From Hyphomonadaceae bacterium (GTDB lineage: Bacteria; Pseudomonadota; Alphaproteobacteria; Caulobacterales; Aquidulcibacteraceae): a stretch of DNA of 64,000 bases. The DNA lies in contig JAEUMR010000010.1 of NCBI GenBank assembly GCA_016791385.1, forward strand, positions 19,822 through 83,821. The letters run 5' to 3'. This document shows, one piece after another, positions 2,703 to 19,136 of the stretch. Within the stretch, counting starts at the first letter, position 1, and each line of letters starts with the position of its first letter. The notes beneath the pieces are model-generated. The model was not told the DNA's origin, did no database searches, and saw only the letters and a program-made list of their open reading frames with translations. Made by a program: the position numbers and the translations under genes.

Positions 2703-4418
2703 ATGAAGACTGCGGCCATCTCTGCTTGGGCGGCGCATCCTATGAAACCTGAGACACGCGATACGATCTGGGTCGCCATCCTGGCGTTCGTCTCGGTCGT
2801 GCTTCTTTCCAGCACGATCTGGGAAAACGGCGACATTGAGCTCAAATGGTGGGCGGTGAAAGCCTGGGCCAATTTCCAGTTCCCCGACTTCCCGCCGAAC
2901 CACCACAATATGCGCTGGGCGATCACGTTCCCGGCCGTCTTCTTCATCCGCCTGTTTGGCGACGGCGCGCTGCAATATTTGCTGCTGAACCACCTCGTCT
3001 TCGCGCTGACCACCGCAGGCCTCTACGCGCTAGTCCGTTCGCTGACCTCGCCGCTGGTGGCGGCGCTGGCGCTGGCGGTGTGGCTGATCAATCCCGCCGT
3101 CTCAGGCCTCGCCGCCAACCTGATGCCGGAGATTTACAGCATCGCTTACGTGGTGGCGGCGCTGCTCGCGTTACAGCGCGCCTACGCGACGGGCTCGCGC
3201 TGGTTCTTTGCTGGCGCCGTGGCGCTGATGTTCTGCGCTTATGGCGCGAAGGAGACCAACATCTTCTTCATGCCCGGCTGGGGCTTGTACGAGCTGATGC
3301 GGCGGCGCTGGAGCAACGCGGCGCTGATCGTCGCCGTATTCGGCGCGCTGCTGGCAGCGGAGACGCTGGCCGTGGACACGCTGCTGAGTGCGCGCCACAT
3401 CGTCTGGGGCCGGGCGCAGGCAATTCTGCAAGCGGGCCATCTCAACGAGATGACCGAAGACTGGATTTACCAGCCGATCGATCTCTTCACGCGCTGGCTC
3501 TTCATCGCGCCCACCAATCTCGACCGGCTCGAATTCTATTCCAAGGCGCTCTACTGGCTGTTCTTCATCGCCACCGGCTGGAAGGCGTGGGAATGGTTCC
3601 GCGCCCGCACCGCGCTGCCGCCTGGAAAATCCGAAGCCCCCGGCGCGGACATCATCCCGGTAACCTGGGCGATGGGGCTCTCGTTCGCCTTCTGCACCAC
3701 CTTCTTCATTCTAAAGCTTAATCCGCTGATCCTCGGCCAGCCGTTGAACGACCGCTATCTATGGCCGCTGCTGGCGCCGGCGACGATCATCTTGAGCGTG
3801 CTGGGTCACCGCGCGCTGCTGGCAACCGAGAGCGCGCAGACGGGTCTCGCGCGAACCTCAGCACGCCTGCAGGCGTTCGCCACGCCGCTCGCCTCCGGCA
3901 AGCTGGCGCTGATGACGCTGGCCGCGATCGCGGGGTTTGCCACGCTGACGCGCGTGCCGATCGAGATGGGCTCGGTGCACATTCGCCGGCACGGCTTTGA
4001 GAAGCCCTATACGACGCTTTCGGCGCAGCGCTGGTACGACGAGGCGCGCGAACACCTGATGCAGGGCTGCACCTTGGCCTTCCCGCGCCGCCGCCCAGCG
4101 CAGACCGTGCTCGTCCATGCAATCCCGTATCGCGACGTGTCACCGACGCTGCAGCTGTACAATCAAGAACTCGATGGCCTGATCATCGCCGGACGCCGCC
4201 TGCACGGCTGGTCCATTCCGCGCGAAGATTGGCCGCTGTTCGAAGGCAAGCTCTACGCCGAACTCGACAACCCCGATTTCTTCCGGCCGTACGCAATCCG
4301 GCTTGAGGGGGCGGGCCAATGCACGCAGATCTTTTATCTCGGCCAGGCCGATATCGCGCCGCAGGACCAGTTGATCGAGGGCGCCCTGCACGAGCCGCCA
4401 ACGACGGCCGCGCCCTAA
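2703..4418 (+). CDS. Polytopic membrane protein, GT-C glycosyltransferase-like
   Basis: A 571-residue integral membrane protein with about 10 hydrophobic segments in the first 420 residues, followed by a soluble C-terminal domain. The N-terminal loop with FPPNHHNMRW and the later LMPEIYSIAYV resemble the acidic first loop and early helices of GT-C (PMT/ArnT-like) transferases, which use polyprenyl-phosphate sugars as donors on the periplasmic face. The match is by architecture, so the assignment is tentative. Two ATGs are possible (2703 and 2742) and neither has a strong ribosome site. The stop overlaps that of the convergent epimerase gene by four bases. Confidence 0.65.
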   Translation: MKTAAISAWAAHPMKPETRDTIWVAILAFVSVVLLSSTIWENGDIELKWWAVKAWANFQFPDFPPNHHNMRWAITFPAVFFIRLFGDGALQYLLLNHLVFALTTAGLYALVRSLTSPLVAALALAVWLINPAVSGLAANLMPEIYSIAYVVAALLALQRAYATGSRWFFAGAVALMFCAYGAKETNIFFMPGWGLYELMRRRWSNAALIVAVFGALLAAETLAVDTLLSARHIVWGRAQAILQAGHLNEMTEDWIYQPIDLFTRWLFIAPTNLDRLEFYSKALYWLFFIATGWKAWEWFRARTALPPGKSEAPGADIIPVTWAMGLSFAFCTTFFILKLNPLILGQPLNDRYLWPLLAPATIILSVLGHRALLATESAQTGLARTSARLQAFATPLASGKLALMTLAAIAGFATLTRVPIEMGSVHIRRHGFEKPYTTLSAQRWYDEAREHLMQGCTLAFPRRRPAQTVLVHAIPYRDVSPTLQLYNQELDGLIIAGRRLHGWSIPREDWPLFEGKLYAELDNPDFFRPYAIRLEGAGQCTQIFYLGQADIAPQDQLIEGALHEPPTTAAP

Positions 4419-8250: not shown

Positions 8251-8892
8251 TCAGGCCGTGCGCACCTCGCGCACCGGCTTCTTCACCGGCTTCGGTTTGC
8301 GCCGCAGGCGTTTCACGAACTCCCGCGCCGCACGCGAACGGCGATAGCGGTTCCAAATCGACCCCAGCCGCGCTGGCGACGCATCGAGTTCGAACTTCGC
8401 CGACAGTTCCGCTCCGGCCGCGCCGCCCTGCGTGACCGAGCACACTTGGCGCAAGGCCGGCGGCGCCATTGTCAGCGCCGCTTGCACCGCCGTCTCGATA
8501 ACGCGGCTCTTTGCGCCATCCTCAACATTGATCACGAGCGCCACCTCGGCCACACGCGGCTTCAGCGCGGCAAGCTGCGTGATCGCCGCGATCGTGGCGT
8601 CAGCGATTCCTGGCGTGATCAGGGCATGGCCAATGCGCGCGACATCATTGAAGTGCGCGACTGGCGCGCCAGCGCTGGCGCGCGGAAAAAGACGGCGCGT
8701 CAGGCTCGGGCCGAGCCCCCACAGAAGGCGCATGTCGGCGCGCGCGGTGGAGGTCGGGGTATCGACAAGGATCGTCGTCCGCGCAGGCGTATAAAATAGC
8801 GCGAACAAGACGAACAGCACCACGGCGCCGGCGCCGCCCAGCCACAGCGCAGCGGGCGATGAAACCCAAGTTGCAAGCGTATCCAAGGCCAC
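8251..8892 (-). CDS. Hypothetical protein with one N-terminal transmembrane helix
   Basis: About 213 residues and not recognised. A single strong hydrophobic helix (WLGGAGAVVLFVLFALFY) lies near the N-terminus, followed by a soluble domain rich in Ala and Val and a very basic C-terminal tail (RLRRKPKPVKKPVREVR). The GTG at 8892 is placed five bases after GGGGAGGGG and is clearly preferred to the in-frame codon at 8997, which would overlap the preceding DUF2254 gene. It is the distal gene after that gene on the same strand. The tail could bind nucleic acid or acidic lipid, but this is only composition. Confidence 0.7.
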   Translation of the reverse strand: MALDTLATWVSSPAALWLGGAGAVVLFVLFALFYTPARTTILVDTPTSTARADMRLLWGLGPSLTRRLFPRASAGAPVAHFNDVARIGHALITPGIADATIAAITQLAALKPRVAEVALVINVEDGAKSRVIETAVQAALTMAPPALRQVCSVTQGGAAGAELSAKFELDASPARLGSIWNRYRRSRAAREFVKRLRRKPKPVKKPVREVRTA

Positions 8893-8971
8893 AGCGCCCC
8901 TCCCCGGCCCATCCTTATAGGGCTTGTCAGGCAAAGGGGAGGTCAGACGTGTGCGGCGGAAGGGCCTGACA

Positions 8972-10540
8972 TCAGGCCGCCCGGGCGGCTTCCTCAACGG
9001 CGGAGAAGAATGCGGGCAAGCACGCCCGTTGCGCGTCGGGCATGAACTCGAAGTTGCGCCCGCGGTCGATGATTTCCCAGAAATCCTTACTCCCGACGTT
9101 CTCCAGCTGCCGCCGGATCATCTGCAAGCGCTCGGCCGGCTCTTCGCGCATGTCGTAGGCGATGGATCGGGCGCGATCCTCTTGGCCAGTCGAGAGATAG
9201 TACGCGGCAAGCTTCACTTGCGCCTTGCGAACACCCAGCAGCGCCTTTTCCTGCTCGCGCACGAACGGAGCGCGATCCAGCTCCAAGAACTCACGCAAGA
9301 TCTCGCTCTCAGCGGGAGAGGATAGCTCGTTGGCCAGCTGCGCCAATGCCGACAAGTCGTAGGCGACCGTCTCGGTAACGAAGGTCAGCTCCGTCTCGAA
9401 GCTCAGCAACCCATAATATTTCATGTGCTTGACTGCATCGACTGCCGCCTTTGTCCGGCCCTGCTGCAGCATCGCTTCGCCGAGTTTCCGGTACTGGTTG
9501 AGGACGTTATAGGCGGTGCGCACATCACGCGCGTTCAGGGTCGCGCGCATGTAGGAATTGAAGAAGCGGAAGACGAGGTCGATGAGTTCGGTGTCGTTAA
9601 CCCGCGCCGCCGCATCGCCAATGTATCGTGTGTCGATGGCGATCACATAAGCGACGTCGCGCATCGAACTCAGCGCTTCATTGTAGATGCTGAGATACTG
9701 GCGCATCACCTTCCATTCGACCCAGGTCCGGCGCGCCTCCAGATCACCGAGCGATTCCGCGTCCATGGCGACGAAGTCCGGATTTTGGCGGATCGCCGGA
9801 CCGATGGAGAACCACGCCCCATTGGCGTGTTGCTTCACATCGAGGTAGGCGATCGCAAAGTCCTTCAACGCATCGGCCGAGGCGCTGGCGATGATTTTGT
9901 CTTTTCCCGAGATCGAGTTGTTGGCGATGTCCGTCAGCTCTTCGAGCGCGAACAGCATCTCCGCCTGCGCCCCGAAGCACTCCGCCTGATCCTGGCCGTG
10001 CGCGCCCTTGTTGGCGGTCCGCACTGCATCTTCATGGATGTGACGGACCAGATTTTGCGGAGCCAAAAACCAGAACACGTAGCCGAAATAGGGCATGGTG
10101 ATGATCAGGCCGCCCATCGTCAGCGACAGCATCACCAGAAGCGTGATGCGCGGCACGAACTCTGAATGACCCGCCGCCGCCAGCCACACGCTGGTGGCGC
10201 TCGCGATCACGTAATAGGCGGCGACATAGATATTCAGGCGGTCGCGCAAAAACATGCGCGCCACACCCGTGTAGCGTTCAGACGAGAGCTGAACGATGAT
10301 GCTGACGACGGTGATGACGATGCCGAACACGGCGGCATTGACACCGACGAGCGTCGATAGCGCATTGCTGCTCGATCCGGGATCGAAGTTGAAATAGAGC
10401 GCTATCGGCCCTGCGCCGGGCTGCCGCGACAAGTAAAAGTCGGCGCAGTAGAAGCCCCAGAACACCGCCAGCGCGGCCCAGGCCAAGATCGCCGCCTGAA
10501 AAGCGAAGCGGCGATAGGAATCGCGGTCAAGATTGTTCAT
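8972..10540 (-). CDS. DUF2254 family membrane protein
   Basis: A protein of about 522 residues with four transmembrane helices in the first 170 residues, including the family-typical stretches FDPGSSSNALSTLVG, VVSIIVQLSSERYTG and MPYFGYVF. A long soluble, helix-rich C-terminal region follows. DUF2254 proteins are predicted inner-membrane proteins of unknown function. Two starts are possible, ATG 10585 and ATG 10540; neither has a convincing ribosome site, and 10540 begins closer to the first helix with a typical charged leader. The next gene downstream is the single-helix protein at 8892. Confidence 0.8.
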   Translation of the reverse strand: MNNLDRDSYRRFAFQAAILAWAALAVFWGFYCADFYLSRQPGAGPIALYFNFDPGSSSNALSTLVGVNAAVFGIVITVVSIIVQLSSERYTGVARMFLRDRLNIYVAAYYVIASATSVWLAAAGHSEFVPRITLLVMLSLTMGGLIITMPYFGYVFWFLAPQNLVRHIHEDAVRTANKGAHGQDQAECFGAQAEMLFALEELTDIANNSISGKDKIIASASADALKDFAIAYLDVKQHANGAWFSIGPAIRQNPDFVAMDAESLGDLEARRTWVEWKVMRQYLSIYNEALSSMRDVAYVIAIDTRYIGDAAARVNDTELIDLVFRFFNSYMRATLNARDVRTAYNVLNQYRKLGEAMLQQGRTKAAVDAVKHMKYYGLLSFETELTFVTETVAYDLSALAQLANELSSPAESEILREFLELDRAPFVREQEKALLGVRKAQVKLAAYYLSTGQEDRARSIAYDMREEPAERLQMIRRQLENVGSKDFWEIIDRGRNFEFMPDAQRACLPAFFSAVEEAARAA

Positions 10541-10985: not shown

Positions 10986-11180
10986 GAAGTCCTCCCCTCA
11001 CAGCCCGCAGCAACGGGCATTCGATGGTCAAACGTTACAGGCATCTCATATTGGCGCCAATCGGCTCGTCGGGCCGCTCGGGCCAGCGCGTGCGAAAGCG
11101 CTACCTCGTGCCTGCAGACGGCTCCGTGCTGCGCAAACAGCAAGCAGCCCATCAAGGGGCGTGGCCCGAGATCATCTTCA

Positions 11181-11200
11181 CGCACTCGTTAGTGAGTATT
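11181..11200. promoter_or_regulatory. Putative operator upstream of the MFS-esterase operon (copy 1)
   Basis: CGCACTCGTTAGTGAGTATT matches the element at 18951-18970 in 14 of 17 core positions (CAC-N-CGTTAG-Y-GA-R-TAT). It carries the inverted arms ACTC and GAGT. Both copies sit just upstream of a TTGAC -35-like hexamer, but the two promoters run in opposite directions. The box is therefore more likely a regulator site than part of the core promoter. The TetR-family gene at 14333 is the natural candidate regulator (inference). Confidence 0.5.
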
Positions 11201-11227
11201 GACGACGTGCTAGCGATGGCCCCATGA
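11199..11227 (+). promoter_or_regulatory. Candidate promoter of the MFS-esterase operon
   Basis: TTGACG (11199-11204) is separated by 17 bases from CCATGA (11222-11227). The -35 is good and the -10 poor, as is usual in GC-rich alphaproteobacteria. It overlaps the end of the 20-bp box at 11181. The remaining non-coding stretch 10986-11338 holds nothing else I can support; two short frames in it have no coding character. Confidence 0.35.
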
Positions 11228-11338
11228 TGAGTTCAAGCTCGGCCACCAAGACCGGCTCGCCATGGGAGGGATGAGTGCCCCGATACGCAGCGGCCGCATG
11301 CGCGGCCGATGAGGCAGCGTGCGCGCTTGCGGTGCGCC

Positions 11339-12667
11339 ATGGCTGACGAAGCGCGCGGCGCTCCCCTCACGCAGAGCATGACCGGCAGTCCGGGTACAGC
11401 GCGCCCTCGCGCAGGCTTGGTGCTCGCCGTGCTCTGCTTTGTCTATGTGCTCAACTTCCTCGATCGTCAGCTGCTGTCGATCTTGGCCAAGCCGATCCAA
11501 GACAGCCTGCATGTCACCGACAGCCAGTTGGGTCTGATCGGCGGGCTCTACTTCGCTTTCTTCTACTGCTTCATCGCTATCCCTGTCGGCTGGCTTGCGG
11601 ATAAGACCAATCGCGTCGCCGTGCTGTCGGCCGCGTGCGCGATCTGGAGCGCGGCGACAATGGCCTGCGGCCTGGCGCGCACGTATCCCCAGCTTGTGAT
11701 CGCGCGTATGACTGTCGGCTTCGGTGAAGCCGGCGGCGTACCGCCGTCTTACGCAATCATCTCCGACTATTTCCCACCGGGCAGGCGCGGCACGGCGCTG
11801 AGCATCTTCAATCTCGGGCCACCCATTGGCGCAGCGCTCGGCATCGCCTTCGGCGCCTCGATCGCCGCTGCCTTCAGCTGGCGTGACGCGTTCATCGTGC
11901 TCGGCGGCGTCGGCCTGCTGGCGGCGCTGGTTGTGATCCTCGTCGTGCGTGAGCCTCCGCGCGGCGGCATGGACGGCCAGGCGGCGCAAGAAGCCACGCA
12001 CAAGGCGGGTTTCTGGCCTACGCTGGTGATGTTTTTTTCCCGGCCTTCATTGGTGCTGGCGGGCCTCGGCGGCGGCGCGGCGCAATTTATCACCTATGGC
12101 GTCGGCAATTTCACCACGCTGTTTTTGATGCGGGAAAAGGGCATGACGCTCGAACAGGTCGCGCTCTATTATTCGCTTGTAGTTGGCCTGGGCATGGGCG
12201 CAGGCATCATCGCCTCAGGCTGGGTCATCGACCGCTTCGCGCGCCGCTGGAAGCAAGCCTACGCGCTAGCGCCAGCCATCTCGCTCGCGTTGGCGATCCC
12301 CTTCTACCTCGCCTTCGTCTGGGCCCCGACCTGGCAGCTTGGCGTGCTGTTCGCAATCGGGCCAACGTTTCTCAACTACTTCTATCTCTCCTCCGCCGTC
12401 ACGCTCGTGCAGGAGGAGGTCCGTCCGGATCAACGGGTGATGTCAGGCGCGCTGTTGCTGCTGGTGATGAATTTCATCGGCCTTGGCCTTGGCCCCACCT
12501 ATGTCGGCGCCGCCAGCGATTATTTCCGCGCCACCCATCCGGACAATTCCCTGCAGGTGGCGCTTTACACGATGACGCCGTTTTATGTCGTCGCCATCGT
12601 CTTGTTTCTCTGGCTTGCGCGCGTGCTGCGCCAGGAAGAGCGCCGCGCCAAGGAGGCCGCGCCATGA
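11339..12667 (+). CDS. Major facilitator superfamily transporter
   Basis: A 442-residue transporter with 12 predicted helices. FVYVLNFLDRQLLSILAKPIQ in helix 1, GWLADKTNRVAVL in loop 2-3 (the MFS motif A region) and GEAGGVPPSYAIISDYFPPGRRG in helix 4-5 match the spinster-like/hexuronate-type MFS proteins common in sphingomonads and Caulobacterales. These often import aromatic or other organic acids. ATG 11339 is preferred to the in-frame ATG at 11309 because it gives a normal-length cytoplasmic leader. Its last codon overlaps the start of the carboxylesterase gene (ATGA), so the two are one operon. Confidence 0.88.
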   Translation: MADEARGAPLTQSMTGSPGTARPRAGLVLAVLCFVYVLNFLDRQLLSILAKPIQDSLHVTDSQLGLIGGLYFAFFYCFIAIPVGWLADKTNRVAVLSAACAIWSAATMACGLARTYPQLVIARMTVGFGEAGGVPPSYAIISDYFPPGRRGTALSIFNLGPPIGAALGIAFGASIAAAFSWRDAFIVLGGVGLLAALVVILVVREPPRGGMDGQAAQEATHKAGFWPTLVMFFSRPSLVLAGLGGGAAQFITYGVGNFTTLFLMREKGMTLEQVALYYSLVVGLGMGAGIIASGWVIDRFARRWKQAYALAPAISLALAIPFYLAFVWAPTWQLGVLFAIGPTFLNYFYLSSAVTLVQEEVRPDQRVMSGALLLLVMNFIGLGLGPTYVGAASDYFRATHPDNSLQVALYTMTPFYVVAIVLFLWLARVLRQEERRAKEAAP

Positions 12668-14319
12668 AGCTGCTCAGCACCTTCGTCTTCGTCGCTGTGC
12701 TCGCCACAGCCTCCGCCGCTTGTGCGCAAACCGGTTCACGCATGCCCGACTCCGCCGCCCCTGTCGTCGAAGCGCCCGCGGGCCCCGTGCAGGGGCGGCT
12801 TCAGGACGGCATCCGCGTCTTCAAGGGCATCCCTTACGCACAACCTCCTGTCGGCCCGCTGCGCTGGCGCCCGACCCAGCCGGCGCCTGATTGGCGTGAG
12901 CTGCGCCAGGCGAGCGAATACGGCCCCGCTTGTCCGCAACCGGTTGCGCGCACGCGCGGCATCTATGCCCAGGACCTGGGCGCGCAGAGCGAAGACTGCC
13001 TCACGCTCAACGTCTGGACGCCTGCCAACGCGCACAACGCGCCCGTGCTCGTCTGGATTCATGGCGGAGCGCTTGTGGCGGGGGCGAGCAAAGAGCCGCT
13101 CTACGACGGCGCCCGGCTCGCAGCAGAAGGCATCATCGTTGTCAGCATCAATTATCGCCTCGGCGTGCTCGGCTATCTCGCCCATCCCGAGCTGAGCGCG
13201 GAGTCGGCGCAACACGTCTCCGGCAATTACGGCCTGCTCGACCAGATCGAAGCGCTGCGTTGGGTTCAGCGCAATATTGGCGCTTTCGGCGGCGACGCGG
13301 CGAACGTAACGATCGCCGGGGAGTCCGCTGGCGGGCTCAGCGTCATGTACCTGATGACGTCACCGCCTGCACGCGGCCTGTTCGCGCGCGCGATTGCGCA
13401 GAGCGCCTACATGATCTCGATGCCGGAATTGCGCGAGGCCCGGCACGGGCACGAAGCGGCCGAGACGACCGGCCTTCGGCTGGCGCAAAGGCTGAACGCG
13501 GCCAACATCGCCGCACTTCGCCAGATGGACGCTGATGATCTGGTCAATGGCGCCACGGCAGCCGGCTACTCCGCCCTCGGCACGGTCGACGTCCAGATTC
13601 TGCCCGGCCAGCTTGTCGACGTGTTCGACCACGGCGAGCAAGCGCCGGTTCCAATCCTTGCCGGCTTCAACAGCGGCGAAATCCGTTCGCTGACAATCCT
13701 CATCCCCGAACCGCCGGCAAGCCGCGACACCTACGAGCGTACGATCCGCGAGCGCTATCTCGATCTCAGCGATGTGTTCCTGCGTCTCTACCCGAGCGGC
13801 AACATCCGCGAGAGCATGCTCGCGACCACACGCGACGCGATGTATGGCTGGACCGCCGAGCGTTTGGTCCGCAGCCAGACCGCGCAAGGCGCACAATCCT
13901 ACCTCTATCTCTTCGATCACGGCTATCCGGCAGCGGACGAGGCGCAATTGCATGCGTTTCACGGCAGCGAGCTGCCATACATGTTCGGCAACATGCAGCG
14001 CACGCCGCCATATTGGCCCGCGATTCCTTCCACCAATCGCGAACGGCGCCTTGCCGATGCAATGGTGCGCTATTGGGCCAGTTTTGCACGTGACGGACGC
14101 CCGCGAGCAGCGAACATGCCTGAATGGGCCGCCTATGGACCCGGCGCTGCGTTCATACATTTCTCCGACACGCCGCAGCTGTCGCAGCGCATGATGCCCG
14201 GCATGTTCGCGCTGCACGAAATCGCGACGTGCCGCCGGCGCGCCGCCGGCGATCAGCAATGGTTCTGGAATGTCGGCATCATTTCCCCGGCGCTGACGCG
14301 CCAGGAAGGTTGCCCCTGA
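12664..14319 (+). CDS. Secreted type-B carboxylesterase
   Basis: A 551-residue alpha/beta hydrolase of the carboxylesterase/PnbA family with an N-terminal signal peptide (ending near ASAACAQ). GESAGG holds the nucleophile Ser221. NYRLGVLGYLAHPE and EDCLTLNVWTP are family blocks, FNSGEIRS carries the acid residue and FHGSELPYMFGN the catalytic His. The predicted periplasmic or surface location suits hydrolysis of esters before uptake. It is coupled to the MFS transporter gene by an ATGA overlap and faces the TetR gene 13 bp away. With the nearby acyl-CoA synthetase this suggests an ester whose acid moiety is activated to a CoA thioester. Confidence 0.88.
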   Translation: MKLLSTFVFVAVLATASAACAQTGSRMPDSAAPVVEAPAGPVQGRLQDGIRVFKGIPYAQPPVGPLRWRPTQPAPDWRELRQASEYGPACPQPVARTRGIYAQDLGAQSEDCLTLNVWTPANAHNAPVLVWIHGGALVAGASKEPLYDGARLAAEGIIVVSINYRLGVLGYLAHPELSAESAQHVSGNYGLLDQIEALRWVQRNIGAFGGDAANVTIAGESAGGLSVMYLMTSPPARGLFARAIAQSAYMISMPELREARHGHEAAETTGLRLAQRLNAANIAALRQMDADDLVNGATAAGYSALGTVDVQILPGQLVDVFDHGEQAPVPILAGFNSGEIRSLTILIPEPPASRDTYERTIRERYLDLSDVFLRLYPSGNIRESMLATTRDAMYGWTAERLVRSQTAQGAQSYLYLFDHGYPAADEAQLHAFHGSELPYMFGNMQRTPPYWPAIPSTNRERRLADAMVRYWASFARDGRPRAANMPEWAAYGPGAAFIHFSDTPQLSQRMMPGMFALHEIATCRRRAAGDQQWFWNVGIISPALTRQEGCP

Positions 14320-14340
14320 CCGCAGCGTCGCGTCAGGCTT
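14315..14340. terminator. Short hairpin between convergent esterase and TetR genes
   Basis: CCTGAC (14315-14320) and GTCAGG (14332-14337) pair across an 11-nt loop and are followed by CTTTC on the plus strand. The stem overlaps the esterase stop codon. It lacks a proper T-tract, so it is only a weak candidate transcription terminator. Confidence 0.3.
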
Positions 14341-15046
14341 TCAGCGCCAGAAAACCTGCCGCCATGAACTTGGCGATGCGCTTCTTGACGGCAGGAAAAT
14401 CATCCGAGCGGCAGATCCCGCCGGACAAGCGATCAATCCGGCCGGTGCGCGCGAGCGTGTTCATCAGCGCGCCGGTGACGAAGTGGTAGCCCCAGAAAAT
14501 GTCCTCGTCCGAATAGTCCGGCAACGCCTTCTTGAGGATGCTGACGAGCTTCAGAACCACGGGATCGAAATACTCATCCATGAGCTTGGCGCCCTCAGGC
14601 GTGTTGCTCACCCGGGCGCAGAAGGAGGCGTAATTCATCCAAAGCTCGCCGCCCTCATAATAGAGATCGAGGTCGGTATCCAAGAAGGCGTGTAGCGCCC
14701 CTTCGACGGTGGGGCGCTTGCCCGCGGCCGCTTCGTATTCTTCAAGCGCACGCATACGTCTGCCGCTGGTGACGCTGGCGCGCCGCGCGAACACCGCTTC
14801 GAACAGGTTGTTCTTGTCCTTGAAATAGTAGTGCAGCAGCGTCGTGTGGATACCCACGCGTTCGGCGACGTCGCGCAGGGTCACGCCGTAAAGGCCGTGC
14901 TTGGAGAACAGGTACTCGGCGGCGTCCAGAATCTGCTCGAGGCTCTCGGCCCGCTGCTCAGCCTTGGTGCGCGGGCGGCGTTTGTCCGCTGCACGCTTCG
15001 CCTTCGAACCGGCTGCCTTTGAATCGGCAGAGACCCGCTTCGTCAC
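14333..15046 (-). CDS. TetR/AcrR family transcriptional regulator
   Basis: About 237 residues. After a basic, Lys/Arg-rich leader the DNA-binding domain reads LFSKHGLYGVTLRDVAERVG, then HTTLLHYYFKDKNNLFEAVF, a canonical TetR helix-turn-helix. The C-terminal half is the ligand and dimer domain. GTG 15046 overlaps the acyl-CoA synthetase stop as GTGA and is preferred; TTG 15055 is an alternative. It is the last gene of the TonB receptor-ligase-TetR array. I infer that it binds the two similar boxes at 11181 and 18951 and responds to a substrate or CoA ester of this pathway. Confidence 0.87.
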   Translation of the reverse strand: MTKRVSADSKAAGSKAKRAADKRRPRTKAEQRAESLEQILDAAEYLFSKHGLYGVTLRDVAERVGIHTTLLHYYFKDKNNLFEAVFARRASVTSGRRMRALEEYEAAAGKRPTVEGALHAFLDTDLDLYYEGGELWMNYASFCARVSNTPEGAKLMDEYFDPVVLKLVSILKKALPDYSDEDIFWGYHFVTGALMNTLARTGRIDRLSGGICRSDDFPAVKKRIAKFMAAGFLALKA

Positions 15047-16653
15047 ACCCGCCAACGGCTTGCCCCTTGAGCTGCGAACCTGTCCTTTGCGTAGTCAGCG
15101 CGCAGCTTGATCTTGTCAATCTTACCTGTCGCCGCGAGCGGCATTGTTTCGATCTGTTCAACGTCGTCGGGAATCCACCAATCCGCGACCTTGCCGCGGA
15201 GGGACGCCAGCAATGACTGCGTATCCACCGCCTGCCCCTGCCGTGGCTCGACGATCAACACCGGCCGCTCGCCCCACTTCTCATCCTCCCGGCCAATGAC
15301 CGCCACCAGCCCGACAGCGGGATGGCGGCCGACAATCTCTTCGATCTCAGCCGGATTGATCCATTCGCCGCCAGATTTGATCAGGTCCTTCGACCGGCCG
15401 CAGATGCTGAGAGTGCCGTCATCGCCGATCAAGGCGAGATCGCCGGTATCAAAATACCCTTCGGCGTCGAGTGCATCGGCGTCGGCGTTGAAATAACAGT
15501 CGACGACGCTTGCGCCTTTCACTTTCAGACGCCCCATCACGCCCCTTTGCTGAGGAAGAGTCACCCCTTCGGCATCCGTAAGTTTGAGATCGAGGCCCAT
15601 CGGCGCGCGTCCTGCCCCGCGCTCGGCGGACGGCGCTGCGCGCGGAGACTCTACCGTGCCCAGCGGGGAAAGCTCGGTCATGCCCCAGCTGGTCTGCACG
15701 CGCGCGGCAAAGCGCGATTCCATTCGCTCGATCAGCGCGTCAGGGCATTTCGAACCGCCGATGATGACGCGCTCAAGCGCGGGCAGATCGGAATCCGAGG
15801 CGTCGAGATGATCGAGTACGCCGAGCCACACCGTTTGCACTCCGACGGCCACCGTCACGCCTTCCTCGCGCATCAGCCGCGCTAAGCTGGCGCCATCGGC
15901 ATTACGGCCTGGCAGCACCAGCTTCGCACCCACGGCGGGAGCGGCGAAGGGCAAGCCCCAACCGTTGGCGTGAAACATCGGCACCGCGACGAGAACAGCG
16001 TCGCTTCCTGTCAGCGCAAACGCATCCGCCTGCAGCGCCCGCAAAGTGTGCAGGTAGTTCGAACGGTGTGTGTAGAGCACGCCCTTGGGCTTGCCGGTCG
16101 TGCCAGATGTGTAGCACAGGCCAGCCGGCGCATCCTCGGCGAAGGCTCCCCAGCCCACCGGTGCGCCGGATTCTGCGAGAAGCGCCTCGTGTCGCCATGT
16201 CCGCGGCCTCTGGAACGCAAACGAAGGCGCCAAATCTCCGTCCATCACGATCAGGTTTTCAAGCATGGGACAGAGCGCCACGAGCTGCGCGGCGAGCGGC
16301 GCCAGATTGCTAGAAAACGCCAATGCGCGCTCGCCAGCCTCGTTGATCATGGCCGCGAGCTGGGTTGCGGTCAGCCGCGGATTGAGCGTGTGGCAGACGA
16401 GCCCCGCTCCCATCGCCGCATAATACATCTCGAAATGATGTTGCGTATTCCAGGCCAGCGTTCCCACGCGATCGCCAACTTTGAGCCCCAGCGACACCAG
16501 CGCCCCCGAGAGCCCGTTCGCACGCTCTCTGAGCGCCGCATAGCCGATGCGGGTTACAGCGCCATCCTCGTCAACGCTGACCACCTCACGATCCGGCGAC
16601 CACTTGGCGGCGTGCTCCAAGAATTTGTCGACGGTGAGCGCGTAGGCCTGCAT
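15043..16653 (-). CDS. Acyl-CoA synthetase (AMP-forming, FadD/long-chain type)
   Basis: A 536-residue adenylate-forming enzyme. YTSGTTGKPKGVLYTH is the phosphate-binding P-loop motif, SWGMTELSPLG the adenine-binding A5 motif, and GYFDTGDLALIGDDG and GRSKDLIKSGGEWI the hinge region. LAATGKIDKIKLR carries the catalytic C-terminal lysine. It activates a carboxylic acid with ATP and CoA. The first 60 residues match medium/long-chain or aryl-acid ligases, but substrate length cannot be read. It follows the TonB receptor gene by 71 bp and overlaps the TetR start, giving a transport-activation-regulation array. Confidence 0.9.
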   Translation of the reverse strand: MQAYALTVDKFLEHAAKWSPDREVVSVDEDGAVTRIGYAALRERANGLSGALVSLGLKVGDRVGTLAWNTQHHFEMYYAAMGAGLVCHTLNPRLTATQLAAMINEAGERALAFSSNLAPLAAQLVALCPMLENLIVMDGDLAPSFAFQRPRTWRHEALLAESGAPVGWGAFAEDAPAGLCYTSGTTGKPKGVLYTHRSNYLHTLRALQADAFALTGSDAVLVAVPMFHANGWGLPFAAPAVGAKLVLPGRNADGASLARLMREEGVTVAVGVQTVWLGVLDHLDASDSDLPALERVIIGGSKCPDALIERMESRFAARVQTSWGMTELSPLGTVESPRAAPSAERGAGRAPMGLDLKLTDAEGVTLPQQRGVMGRLKVKGASVVDCYFNADADALDAEGYFDTGDLALIGDDGTLSICGRSKDLIKSGGEWINPAEIEEIVGRHPAVGLVAVIGREDEKWGERPVLIVEPRQGQAVDTQSLLASLRGKVADWWIPDDVEQIETMPLAATGKIDKIKLRADYAKDRFAAQGASRWRV

Positions 16654-16724
16654 GCAATGGGGGCTTCAGAGAAAATGCGGCCGCCGGCTGGAGTCAGCAC
16701 GGCGGCCGGAGGGAGGATCGGGGT

Positions 16725-18869
16725 TTAGAACGCTCTCAGGACACGGATGCCGAATTGCCGGGGCGGGCCGGCGAATCGCAGGCCGGAATTGATCGCTCCG
16801 ACATAATGTTGGTCGGTGAGGTTCGTCGCCCACAAGGTGGTGACGAGGTCACCGTGGGTCCATGCCAATTGTGCATTGACAATATTGCGCTCCTCAATGT
16901 GATCGCCACGCGCTACGTTATGAAACAACGTCGCCCATTGTTCGGAGACGTGCCCGTAATTGATGCGCGGCGTGAGCGTGTCCCCGCCGCCCAAAGCGAA
17001 TTCGTACTGCGCGCCGATATTGAAGGTGAGTTCCGGAGCGTATGTTTGCTCGCGTCCTTCGAGATTGATGCAGGTCGCTGACGTTGGACCGGTCAACGGA
17101 TTGCAGGCGACGGCGGGCCCGCCAATACGCGGGTCGGTCGCATAAAACGTCCCTAACTCGCTGTGCAGGAGACCAAGCCCGGCATCGACCGAGAACGCGC
17201 CAAACACCGCCTCAAGCTGTGCTTCGAAGCCGTACATCCTGGTGGTGTCAGGTGCATTGAGTTCGATGTTCAGGCTCGGCACCGGGAAGTCCGGATAGCC
17301 GATGATGACCTGGAAGTTCTCGTACTCATTGTAGTAGGCGTTGATCTGAGTACGCAGATGTCCACCGAGCCAACCCGCCTTCCAGCCGACCTCGTAGCTG
17401 GTGACGTTTTCCTCGTCGAACGGCGCCGGCAGACCAAGACCGACAGGTACGTTCAGTCCCCCAGGCCGGAAACCGGTCGCAACGAATCCATAGAGGAAGT
17501 TGTGGTCGTCGACAGTCCAGTTGAGCGCCACCTTGCCTGAGAGATTGGACCATTCCTCGCGCTGGTCTTGATAGAGCGGCAGCCCAAACTGATTAACAAA
17601 AATGTGGTTGGTGGTGGTCGCTTCCGCGTAACGAGCGCCAATCTGCAACTGGAAACGCGCGGGCAGATTGAAGCTCATCTGGCCGAACACCGCCGCGCTA
17701 TCCTTCGGGTTGGTGCCTTGAATCGTGTACGCAGGCGCCGGCGTCCCGATGTACAAACGGCCATCTGAGAAGGTGTACTGATCTTCCTGGAAATACGCAC
17801 CCAAGATCCAGGTGATCGGTCCGTCATCCGGCGAAATCAGGTTCAATTCCTGTGACCAGATGGTCTCATCAACCGAGTCCGCGAAGGTCAAATTGCCTGC
17901 ACTCGTCCCATCAAGGTCAGTCCGGTACGCGGTGTTGCCTTCCTGGTAGCCTGTCACCGAGCGAATGCGAATTCCGGAGGCGGTCTCATAGTCGACGCGC
18001 AAGGTCGACCTGAGGAAGCGATCGAGCGCCAATTCCGCCGCATTCGCAGAAACGTCGAACAGGTCGTTGGTCGAATTCACCGGATCGGCGGGATAGGCGC
18101 TGAGATCCAGGTAGTCCAAATCCGTCTTGAAGTTCACGCTGAGATTTTCAGTCGGCTCCCACAGAAGACTGAATCGGCCCGCCGCAATGCGCACGCCATC
18201 ATCGCCGGTATGGGGACCGCTAATGTCATAGAAGCTGTCACGGGAGTCGCCGTACAGCGCCACGCGCGCAGCGAGCGTGTCCGAGAGCGGCACGTTGACG
18301 GCAAATTGCCCGCCCACCGCGTTGTAATTGCCGACCTGGCCAAGCGCATAGCCGTGAACGCCGCCGCCAATCACCGGATCGTTAGACACCACGAACACCG
18401 CGCCGCCGGTCGCGTTCTGGCCCACGAAAGTGCCCTGCGGGCCGCGGAGAATCTCAACCCGCGCAACATCGTAATAGGGCTCAGCGGTGAAATATCCGGG
18501 GAAGGTCGCGACACCGTCGCGATAGGTAATGACCCCGGTGGTTGTCTGCGTATTGTGCTCTGCCTTGCCGATGCCGCGAATATTGAAGTCGATCCCCTGA
18601 CCGAAATTGTTCACTGTCGCGCCGGGCGCAATAAACTGAAGCTGGTCAACATTGGCGACGCCCGCGTTGGCGAGGTCGTCGCCGGTCAATACGGTCACGG
18701 CGATCGGCGTGCGCTGCAGACTCGTGGAGCGCCGTTCGGCGGTGACAACGACTTCGTCGGTGGAATCGCTCGCGCTGCTTTCTTGAGCAGGCGTCGTCTG
18801 CGCGGCGGCGGCGCCGCACCAGCTCAGCGTCAACACGGACGCGCTCAGCCACAATGCGTGGATCTTCAT
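16725..18869 (-). CDS. TonB-dependent outer-membrane receptor
   Basis: A 714-residue protein with a signal peptide ending CGAAAAQTT. The plug domain runs from about residue 40 (DEVVVTAERRSTSLQRTPIAVTV) through GTFVGQNATGGAVFVVSNDP, and a beta-barrel ends in a terminal aromatic residue (RVLRAF). No classic C-terminal siderophore-specific feature is seen. Sequences of this length starting DEVVVTAERR are typical of receptors for organic substrates in sphingomonads and Caulobacterales. A strong ribosome site, AAGGGGAGGGAGT, precedes the ATG. It heads the TonB receptor-acyl-CoA synthetase-TetR array, whose promoter holds the second copy of the shared box. Confidence 0.9.
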   Translation of the reverse strand: MKIHALWLSASVLTLSWCGAAAAQTTPAQESSASDSTDEVVVTAERRSTSLQRTPIAVTVLTGDDLANAGVANVDQLQFIAPGATVNNFGQGIDFNIRGIGKAEHNTQTTTGVITYRDGVATFPGYFTAEPYYDVARVEILRGPQGTFVGQNATGGAVFVVSNDPVIGGGVHGYALGQVGNYNAVGGQFAVNVPLSDTLAARVALYGDSRDSFYDISGPHTGDDGVRIAAGRFSLLWEPTENLSVNFKTDLDYLDLSAYPADPVNSTNDLFDVSANAAELALDRFLRSTLRVDYETASGIRIRSVTGYQEGNTAYRTDLDGTSAGNLTFADSVDETIWSQELNLISPDDGPITWILGAYFQEDQYTFSDGRLYIGTPAPAYTIQGTNPKDSAAVFGQMSFNLPARFQLQIGARYAEATTTNHIFVNQFGLPLYQDQREEWSNLSGKVALNWTVDDHNFLYGFVATGFRPGGLNVPVGLGLPAPFDEENVTSYEVGWKAGWLGGHLRTQINAYYNEYENFQVIIGYPDFPVPSLNIELNAPDTTRMYGFEAQLEAVFGAFSVDAGLGLLHSELGTFYATDPRIGGPAVACNPLTGPTSATCINLEGREQTYAPELTFNIGAQYEFALGGGDTLTPRINYGHVSEQWATLFHNVARGDHIEERNIVNAQLAWTHGDLVTTLWATNLTDQHYVGAINSGLRFAGPPRQFGIRVLRAF

Positions 18870-18938
18870 ACTCCCTCCCCTTGGCCATGAGCCCGCGCTC
18901 TCCGGCGCATGGCCAACGCTGACCTGCCTTCAGGAACC

Positions 18939-18944
18939 TGTCAA
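18939..18944 (-). promoter_or_regulatory. Consensus -35 hexamer of the TonB receptor promoter
   Basis: TTGACA on the minus strand lies 70 bp before the receptor start, with AATTAATAT just upstream. The -10 about 17 bases further on (CAGCGT) is weak. The shared box at 18951-18970 ends seven bases upstream of this hexamer. Confidence 0.35.
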
Positions 18945-18950
18945 TATTAA

Positions 18951-18970
18951 TTCACGCGTTAGCGAATATC
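18951..18970. promoter_or_regulatory. Putative operator upstream of the TonB receptor (copy 2)
   Basis: TTCACGCGTTAGCGAATATC is the partner of the box at 11181-11200. Written with its flanking A, ATTC and GAAT form inverted ends (18950-18967), and the centre holds ACGCGT. The similarity is in the same strand orientation although the controlled genes are on opposite strands. A TetR-family site is inferred. Confidence 0.5.
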
Positions 18971-19045: not shown

Positions 19046-19136
19046 TGGCGGAGACGGAGGGATTCGAACCCTCGATACCCTGTTCGAGTATAACGCCTTA
19101 GCAAGGCGCCGCCTTCAGCCACTCGGCCACGTCTCC
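19046..19136 (-). tRNA. tRNA-Ser (anticodon GCT)
   Basis: The minus strand folds as a class II tRNA. The acceptor GGAGACG pairs with CGTCTCC, followed by discriminator G and an encoded CCA. The D-arm begins GCCGAGTGGCTGAAGGC, the anticodon loop reads TTGCTAA, the variable arm is long, and the T-loop is GGTTCGAATCC. The GCT anticodon reads AGC/AGU serine codons. Confidence 0.97.

Follow-up and report, generated by a model that had tools for sequence, protein, structure and literature searches.

The promoters of two neighboring operons in the window, a 64,000-nucleotide stretch of DNA from a Hyphomonadaceae bacterium, share a 26-bp dyad that stands in a fixed register to the -35 hexamer, is confined to this cluster in the host draft genome, and co-occurs with a TetR gene in the sequences compared. 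The two boxes are most likely docking sites of the regulator whose gene lies between them, and the best reading of the sequence is a local TetR regulon (TetR_C_30, PsrA/NicR-like) for a putative ester-scavenging cluster. The sole basis for proposing an ester as the putative substrate is the assignment of one product to the carboxylesterase family. The features of the cluster are as follows.

11174..11199, plus strand: candidate operator dyad ATCTTCACGCACTCGTTAGTGAGTAT at the MFS-esterase promoter; held-out matrix score 33.8, second in the window; own-genome profile E 3.5e-6; 8 of 13 pairs symmetric
11199..11204, plus strand: -35 hexamer TTGACG, first T common with the dyad; read from the sequence, register as in orthologues
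11223..11228, plus strand: tentative -10 CATGAT, spacer 18; read from the sequence by analogy to an A and a T that are weakly conserved in orthologues some 17 bp downstream
11309..12667, plus strand: MFS transporter (MFS_1); Pfam E 3.5e-49
12664..14319, plus strand: type B carboxylesterase (COesterase); Pfam E 1.4e-105
14333..15055, minus strand: TetR regulator, TetR_N + TetR_C_30; PF00440 E 6.9e-14, PF17939 E 1.1e-32; nearest solved chains NicR and 2fbq
15043..16653, minus strand: acyl-CoA synthetase (AMP-binding); Pfam E 8.2e-68; best NCBIfam matches PRK06018 and PRK07008, below cut-off
16725..18869, minus strand: TonB-dependent receptor; Pfam E 2.6e-28 and 1.6e-13
18916..18921, minus strand: tentative -10 CAGCGT, spacer 17; inferred from the sequence, agreeing only with the weakly conserved A and T of orthologues
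18939..18944, minus strand: -35 hexamer TTGACA, first T common with the dyad; read from the sequence
18944..18969, minus strand: candidate operator dyad ATATTCGCTAACGCGTGAATTAATAT at the promoter of the TonB receptor-acyl-CoA synthetase-TetR operon; held-out matrix score 34.6, top in the window; own-genome profile E 1.6e-5; 9 of 13 pairs symmetric

The regulator carries both the TetR_N helix-turn-helix and a TetR C-terminal domain, as members of the TetR family do. A TTG at 15055 opens its reading frame; the GTG at 15046 is the start chosen in the original prediction.

Redrawing of the two promoter boxes

The original prediction had placed a 20-bp box before each operon, and both 20-mers are present in the window sequence, at 11181 and 18951. 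They had been credited with a match at 15 of 20 positions; the recount gave 14. Raw similarity of the 20-mers was rejected as evidence, being at chance level: at best 15 positions agree between 20-mers of the two 201-bp upstream regions, a value reached by 135 of 297 pairs of 201-bp stretches drawn at random from the window. When up to three mismatches were allowed, the first 20-mer matched only itself in the window. The core CGTTAGYGARTAT, a pattern itself taken from both boxes, occurs exactly at these two places only in the host draft genome, and with up to one mismatch it gave four matches including these two, compared with three for a reversed control. This derivation makes the scan weak, and a held-out matrix and a profile were used instead. 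At the level of sequence, the significance of the box pair rests on comparative genomics, not on raw similarity.

Both boxes had also been described as abutting a TTGAC hexamer. This holds for the first (TTGAC at 11199-11203), but the second, as drawn from 18951, does not adjoin the minus-strand TTGAC that starts at 18944. When the two are extended to 26-bp dyads, at 11174-11199 on the plus strand and 18944-18969 on the minus strand, both have their last base in common with TTGAC in the direction of transcription, and each 20-mer is an off-centre core inside an imperfect palindrome with the half-site ATATTCACTCWCG. The puzzle of two promoters pointing in opposite directions is thereby gone, since a dyad stands in equal register to both -35 boxes.

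Distribution of the dyad in loci and genomes

Of 467 matching stretches, the best 80 were kept for the locus sample, giving 79 loci. L109 and L126, which duplicate L037 and L038, were omitted, L035 and L036 were unused because they are covered by L058 and L061, and L051-L054 lay outside the 91 training loci. A matrix trained on the 91 other loci placed both window sites at the top, with 34.6 and 33.8, followed by a third at 12.0, and sites scoring above 12 were present in 89 of the 91 orthologous loci, versus matches in 4-19 of the 91 for column-permuted matrices (20 permutations, threshold 10). A matrix-free count of symmetry peaked at a dyad length of 26 ending on TTGAC (44 of 2194), the other lengths from 18 to 35 giving 1-13 each. 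The check proposed with the original prediction had a positive outcome: orthologous clusters again have the motif in front of both operons. Nor is it scattered genome-wide: a profile built without the window sites returned these two only in the host draft genome (150 of 303 candidates scored). What emerges is a palindromic candidate operator, common to the target promoters and kept together with the regulator.

Records of the dyad-bearing TetR clade come from Caulobacter, Phenylobacterium, Brevundimonas, Hyphomonas, Asticcacaulis, Sphingomonas, Stenotrophomonas, and Pseudoxanthomonas, including a 20.7-kb locus of Brevundimonas viscosa (L058) with three dyads and one TetR gene. Alignment A2 holds 96 of the 120 promoter-oriented sites, those dropped being the two from the window itself, 20 that lack an annotated gene within 300 bp, and two repeat dyads. 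No dyad with at least 9 of 13 pairs ending on TTGAC was found in 18 loci (L021-L034 and L051-L054), and the more distant TetR paralogue loci L051-L054 were rejected as carriers of this site, their dyads scoring 6.4-10.9 at best and none being clear. A loosely linked short-chain dehydrogenase group recurs in 27 loci (by neighbor clustering, with Pfam on one representative), which was too little for naming a substrate.

Of 60 family genomes, all 13 with a TetR orthologue yielded sites and none of the 47 without one did, in a scan with stricter filters (118 candidates scored per genome) by which weak sites in the 47 may be lost; the Fisher p of 1.9e-13 for this co-occurrence ignores the relatedness of the genomes. 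Ten of the 13 site-bearing genomes had fed the profile, and the dyad of an eleventh, G018, is the same as in one of these, so that presence in these eleven is no independent test. The host genome, G012, and G056 fed it no site, yet carry sites: two in G012, on small contigs before the starts of a TonB receptor and an MFS gene, and the strongest in G056 before an MFS gene 73% identical to that of the window, outside the stretch first fetched. The MFS gene was rejected as a means to part the TetR from the enzymes, and because all 11 MFS carriers are among the 13 TetR carriers, only a second copy in G018 is informative. This related MFS-esterase pair without a TetR gene has no dyad (top score 4.0), although the genome has a TetR and a site elsewhere; in this single control found, the motif goes with the TetR gene and not with the MFS-esterase genes. 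Recurrence, confinement in the host genome, and co-occurrence with the TetR gene together support, from sequence comparison, the original prediction that the TetR protein controls both operons as one regulon.

Register to the -35 hexamer and sign of regulation

Of the 128 gene-facing sites that were scored, 98 have a TTGAC starting exactly on the last base of the palindrome (one more site, making 129, was too close to a contig end for scoring), and near-miss registers were -1 (two sites), +2 (one), +3 (two), and +5 (one). Counted over 183 dyads, 71 are without TTGAC at the usual register; eight have it on both sides. The register at the target promoters is narrower than a repressor requires, a point against a model of repression. 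The -10 is weak in orthologues, with A and T alone clearly conserved. None of 16 sites lying no more than 200 bp from a TetR start has the usual register. Near these starts, the dyad lies over or just beyond a TTGAC promoter in 17 of 22 sites, a repressor-like placement; it follows an opposite-strand TTGAC by 18-20 bp in nine of the 22, in six it overlaps an opposite-strand TTGACT at its end, all from Hyphomonas or Hyphomonadaceae records, and five match no repressor geometry counted. Most likely this is a switch of an otherwise ordinary kind, recurring in related bacteria, whose position against the promoter is unusually constant.

We consider it probable that the cluster TetR binds both dyads and represses both operons until it is released by a ligand; the TetR as binder, repression as the sign, and the identity of the ligand are what we infer. 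A TetR dimer would sit on the 26-bp palindrome adjoining the -35 of both promoters, silencing the MFS-esterase operon and the TonB receptor-acyl-CoA synthetase-TetR operon, hence its own gene too. The candidate ligand, held in the TetR_C_30 domain, would be the substrate, or the acid or acyl-CoA product of the esterase and synthetase. The ligand-bound dimer would then leave, and uptake, hydrolysis, and activation would come on together.

The same TetR and operators might instead be used with the dimer activating the receptor and MFS promoters and repressing near its own gene, a possibility to which we give a rather low probability. A dimer just upstream of the -35 could touch RNA polymerase, and PsrA, which reportedly switches rpoS on and psrA off, acts both ways according to the available portion of PMC13104628. 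The one exact TTGAC register (98 of 128), its absence at the TetR starts, the eight dyads with TTGAC in register on both sides, and the weak -10 with only A and T clearly conserved all fit activation. Extended to the whole widespread clade, this reading describes a two-way switch set by geometry, again doubtful: a palindrome whose last base coincides exactly with the leading T of the -35 would activate the receptor and MFS promoters, one lying over the -35, -10, or start would repress the TetR's own gene, and a single dyad could activate two divergent promoters. However, the -35 is near consensus here, and activator-dependent promoters often have no near-consensus -35; moreover, the clade's other geometries are repressor-like, and shared promoter ancestry could likewise preserve the register.

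Repression by the cluster TetR also has to be weighed against a different factor, encoded elsewhere, that binds the dyads while the TetR governs something else. Dyad-TetR co-occurrence cannot fully part the TetR from the cluster genes, because it usually travels with them; however, the 47 family genomes without an orthologue in which no dyad was found, the dyad-free pair of G018, and genome G010, which keeps a receptor fragment, the TetR, and the dyad but lacks any MFS match at E 1e-100, make such a factor quite unlikely. Chance likeness of the two promoters is more improbable still: matches of 14-15 of 20 are common between random pairs of window regions, but the held-out matrix ranking, the profile search, and the recurrence in 89 of 91 loci argue against it.

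A 26-bp operator model is now available for this TetR clade. It ties the TonB receptor, MFS transporter, carboxylesterase, and acyl-CoA synthetase into one putative regulon, and therefore the inducer, and so the substrate, can be sought in a simple reporter assay. Whether the protein represses or activates is directly testable, given its constant one-base register to the -35.

Comparison with known TetR systems

The closest solved relatives of the cluster TetR by profile are chains of NicR (5fhp and 5fgl, E 2.5e-21), the repressor of the nicotine pathway; chain 2fbq, titled 'probable transcriptional regulator', is presumably PsrA. The best NCBIfam match is likewise PsrA (E 1.5e-15, residues 34-234, nearly full length), but its 57.6 bits fall far short of the equivalog cut-off of 300, so the protein does not qualify as an orthologue. 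In the available portion of PMC13104628, PsrA has palindromic operators, represses its own gene, and activates another promoter; the operator given there, C/GAAAC-N2-4-GTTTG/C, differs, when compared by eye, from the 26-bp ATATTCACTCWCG-type dyad. The regulon here also looks like one local cluster, unlike the fatty-acid degradation genes of PsrA.

A literature search, outside subscription literature, found no paper describing this cluster or regulon. The available portion of PMC13273656 concerns an IclR regulator. In the bsd I bile-salt cluster of Caenibius tardaugens, a TetR gene stands beside CoA-ligase and alpha/beta-hydrolase genes, and palindromic operators have been proposed (PMC12882949, accessible part); both these proposed palindromes and the gene content differ from those of the cluster here. 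The five TetR regulators of the RegPrecise work (FabR, FadP, LiuQ, PsrA, and RutR; Table 1 of PMC5343134, as far as available) belong to fatty-acid, branched-chain amino-acid, and pyrimidine pathways, an ester-uptake cluster not being among them. These proteobacterial regulons nevertheless resemble the present one in that the same method yielded conserved operators at acyl-CoA-related operons (PMC5343134, same portion).

The palindromic element and the cluster around it

The cluster genes are arranged in the window as follows:
11309-12667, plus strand, MFS transporter
12664-14319, plus strand, type B carboxylesterase
minus strand, TonB-dependent receptor, acyl-CoA synthetase and TetR protein with a TetR_C_30 domain

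The closest solved relatives of this TetR protein were two NicR chains and 2fbq, which we take to be PsrA; its top NCBIfam match was likewise PsrA, far under the family cut-off. A tRNA-Ser gene (anticodon gct; 19046-19136, minus strand) lies just past the receptor promoter.

The original prediction had drawn 20-bp boxes at 11181 and 18951, and the letters are indeed present there; a recount gave 14 matching positions of 20 rather than the claimed 15. The best 20-mer match between the two real upstream regions is 15, a value that random pairs of 201-bp stretches of the window reached in 135 of 297 trials, and therefore the similarity of the boxes alone proves nothing. We built a symmetric 26-column matrix, seeded with seven sites of relatives and refined on 91 loci with the window excluded. 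A site scoring above 12 was present in 89 of the 91 loci; L124 and L061 had no site, the contig of the latter breaking off within the cluster. The half-site of this dyad is ATA(T/C)TCACTCWCG, and its information content is about 31 bits. In the window, to which the matrix was blind, the two top places were 18944-18969 (34.6) and 11174-11199 (33.8), with the third at 12.0. Twenty column-permuted matrices gave 4-24 matches in 4-19 loci at a threshold of 10, compared with 202 matches in 89 loci for the real matrix. A matrix-free count of symmetric stretches ending on the first T of TTGAC gave 44 of 2194 for length 26, and 1-13 for each of the other lengths from 18 to 35. The puzzling placement of the boxes beside oppositely pointing promoters was thus an artefact of off-centre drawing, as each box belongs to a dyad and the two dyads share one register. 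The proposal that the TetR gene controls both promoters appears right in substance, given the dyad in other genomes, for a reason invisible in the window alone.

Conservation of the cluster and confinement of the dyad

The TetR orthologue was accompanied by the same partner genes in relatives and in the loci of named records (79 loci from the best 80 of 467 matching stretches). Sources among these best 80 included Caulobacter, Phenylobacterium, Brevundimonas, Hyphomonas, Asticcacaulis, Sphingomonas, Stenotrophomonas, Pseudoxanthomonas, Nitrospirillum and many metagenome bins. The window arrangement, with receptor-synthetase-TetR facing esterase-MFS, was seen again in loci such as L068, L070, L074, L076 and L077, while all five genes lie on a single strand in others (L039-L042). 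In L043 (genome G010; 8619-10366), the receptor start is fused directly to a synthetase end and TetR, the cluster middle being absent through either a deletion or an assembly fault; the dyad and TetR are kept.

A whole-genome scan, of the kind proposed earlier as a check, was run on the host draft genome with a 33-column profile built from 96 sites, window sites left out. In this 83% complete genome, with 150 of 303 candidates scored, nothing was hit beyond the two sites of the window (E 3.5e-6 and 1.6e-5); the third listed match was the second window site read on the opposite strand. Profile sites were present in 13 of 60 genomes of the family, and it is exactly these 13 in which a TetR orthologue was matched at E 1.4e-98 or lower (Fisher p 1.9e-13, uncorrected for relatedness). 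The other 47 had no site at E 0.1, under tighter filters by which part of the weak matches escape; one of them, G026, has only a 44% relative. Ten of the 13 site-bearing genomes had contributed sites to the profile, and the G018 dyad is identical to that of one contributor; the host genome and G012, neither a contributor, still have sites, those of G012 being two on small contigs, immediately before receptor and MFS gene starts. Another MFS-esterase pair in G018, with identities of 62% and 53%, has no TetR gene in the 19.9 kb fetched, and no dyad was found in that stretch (best score 4.0).

Eight genomes of the order, picked for their TetR hits, were searched with the profile, and six gave matches at E 0.05. 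All matches in G050, G054, G056, G058 and G037 fell within about 10 kb of a TetR orthologue, and G053 had one weak match (E 0.033) distant from its 45% TetR relative; G041 and G042 had none at E 0.05. The cluster stretch initially taken from G056 contained no MFS gene; the top site of this genome, which no training set contained, lies before an MFS gene with 73% identity to that of the window.

Promoter register and the sign of regulation

Of 183 dyads catalogued in 92 loci, window included, 112 share their last base with the first T of a TTGAC, at one end or, in 8 of these, at both; in the other 71 no TTGAC stands in this target register. Of the 104 single-sided dyads, 89 are directed at an annotated cluster gene no more than 300 bp away; such a gene is found solely on the opposite side of 2, and the remaining 13 have none in the annotation. 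Within 200 bp upstream of genes, the target register was found at 49/64 sites for receptors, 36/45 for MFS transporters, 9/12 for esterases, 5/8 for synthetases and 0/16 for TetR genes. The offset was 0 in 98 of 128 scored gene-facing sites, with near misses at -1 (2), +2 (1), +3 (2) and +5 (1). A weak -10 element, with only A and T clearly conserved, follows about 17 bp downstream, which would place the dyad centre near -47.5. Single dyads with TTGAC on each side (L059:12126, L062:12124, L064:12205) appear to serve two divergent promoters.

The 22 sites no more than 300 bp from a TetR start were placed differently. For 9 of them, the dyad comes 18-20 bp downstream of a TTGAC on the opposite strand; 6 overlap a TTGACT on that strand at its end, 2 (L115, L118) lie 31 bp past a TetR-strand TTGACA, and 5 match none of these geometries. 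In one such locus checked, L072, the divergent gene is another TonB receptor. Of the three dyads in the Brevundimonas viscosa locus L058, which has a single TetR gene, two occupy the target register and one the repressor position; the receptor site of this locus is weak (16.8). Because the counted positions near TetR genes, including that in L058, can let a dimer block polymerase, repression of the cluster promoters by TetR is favoured on positional grounds, and a substrate-derived ligand would release the protein. Activation of the target promoters is a less likely alternative, for which the one-base constancy of the register speaks, as does the precedent of PsrA, a TetR protein described as a repressor of its own gene and an activator of a different one (PMC13104628).

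Paralogous regulators and relation to known systems

In L071, a related but distinct palindrome, ATACTGACTTACTCGTAAGTCAGTAT (1167-1192), precedes a TonB receptor with TTGAC in the same register, and the TetR gene (3691-4413) after that receptor encodes a paralogue, 51% identical; the register geometry may extend to sister regulators. Weak dyad-like stretches at L052:11922 (10.9) and L053:8027 (6.4) lie shortly before the start of a distant acyl-CoA synthetase gene in loci whose TetR proteins are paralogues (51-53%), and are possibly the paralogue's own operator.

A literature search found no published description of this cluster or regulon. Comparative sequence evidence makes a local TetR regulon of an ordinary kind the well-supported reading; its unusual feature is the fixed register of the dyad to the -35 box.
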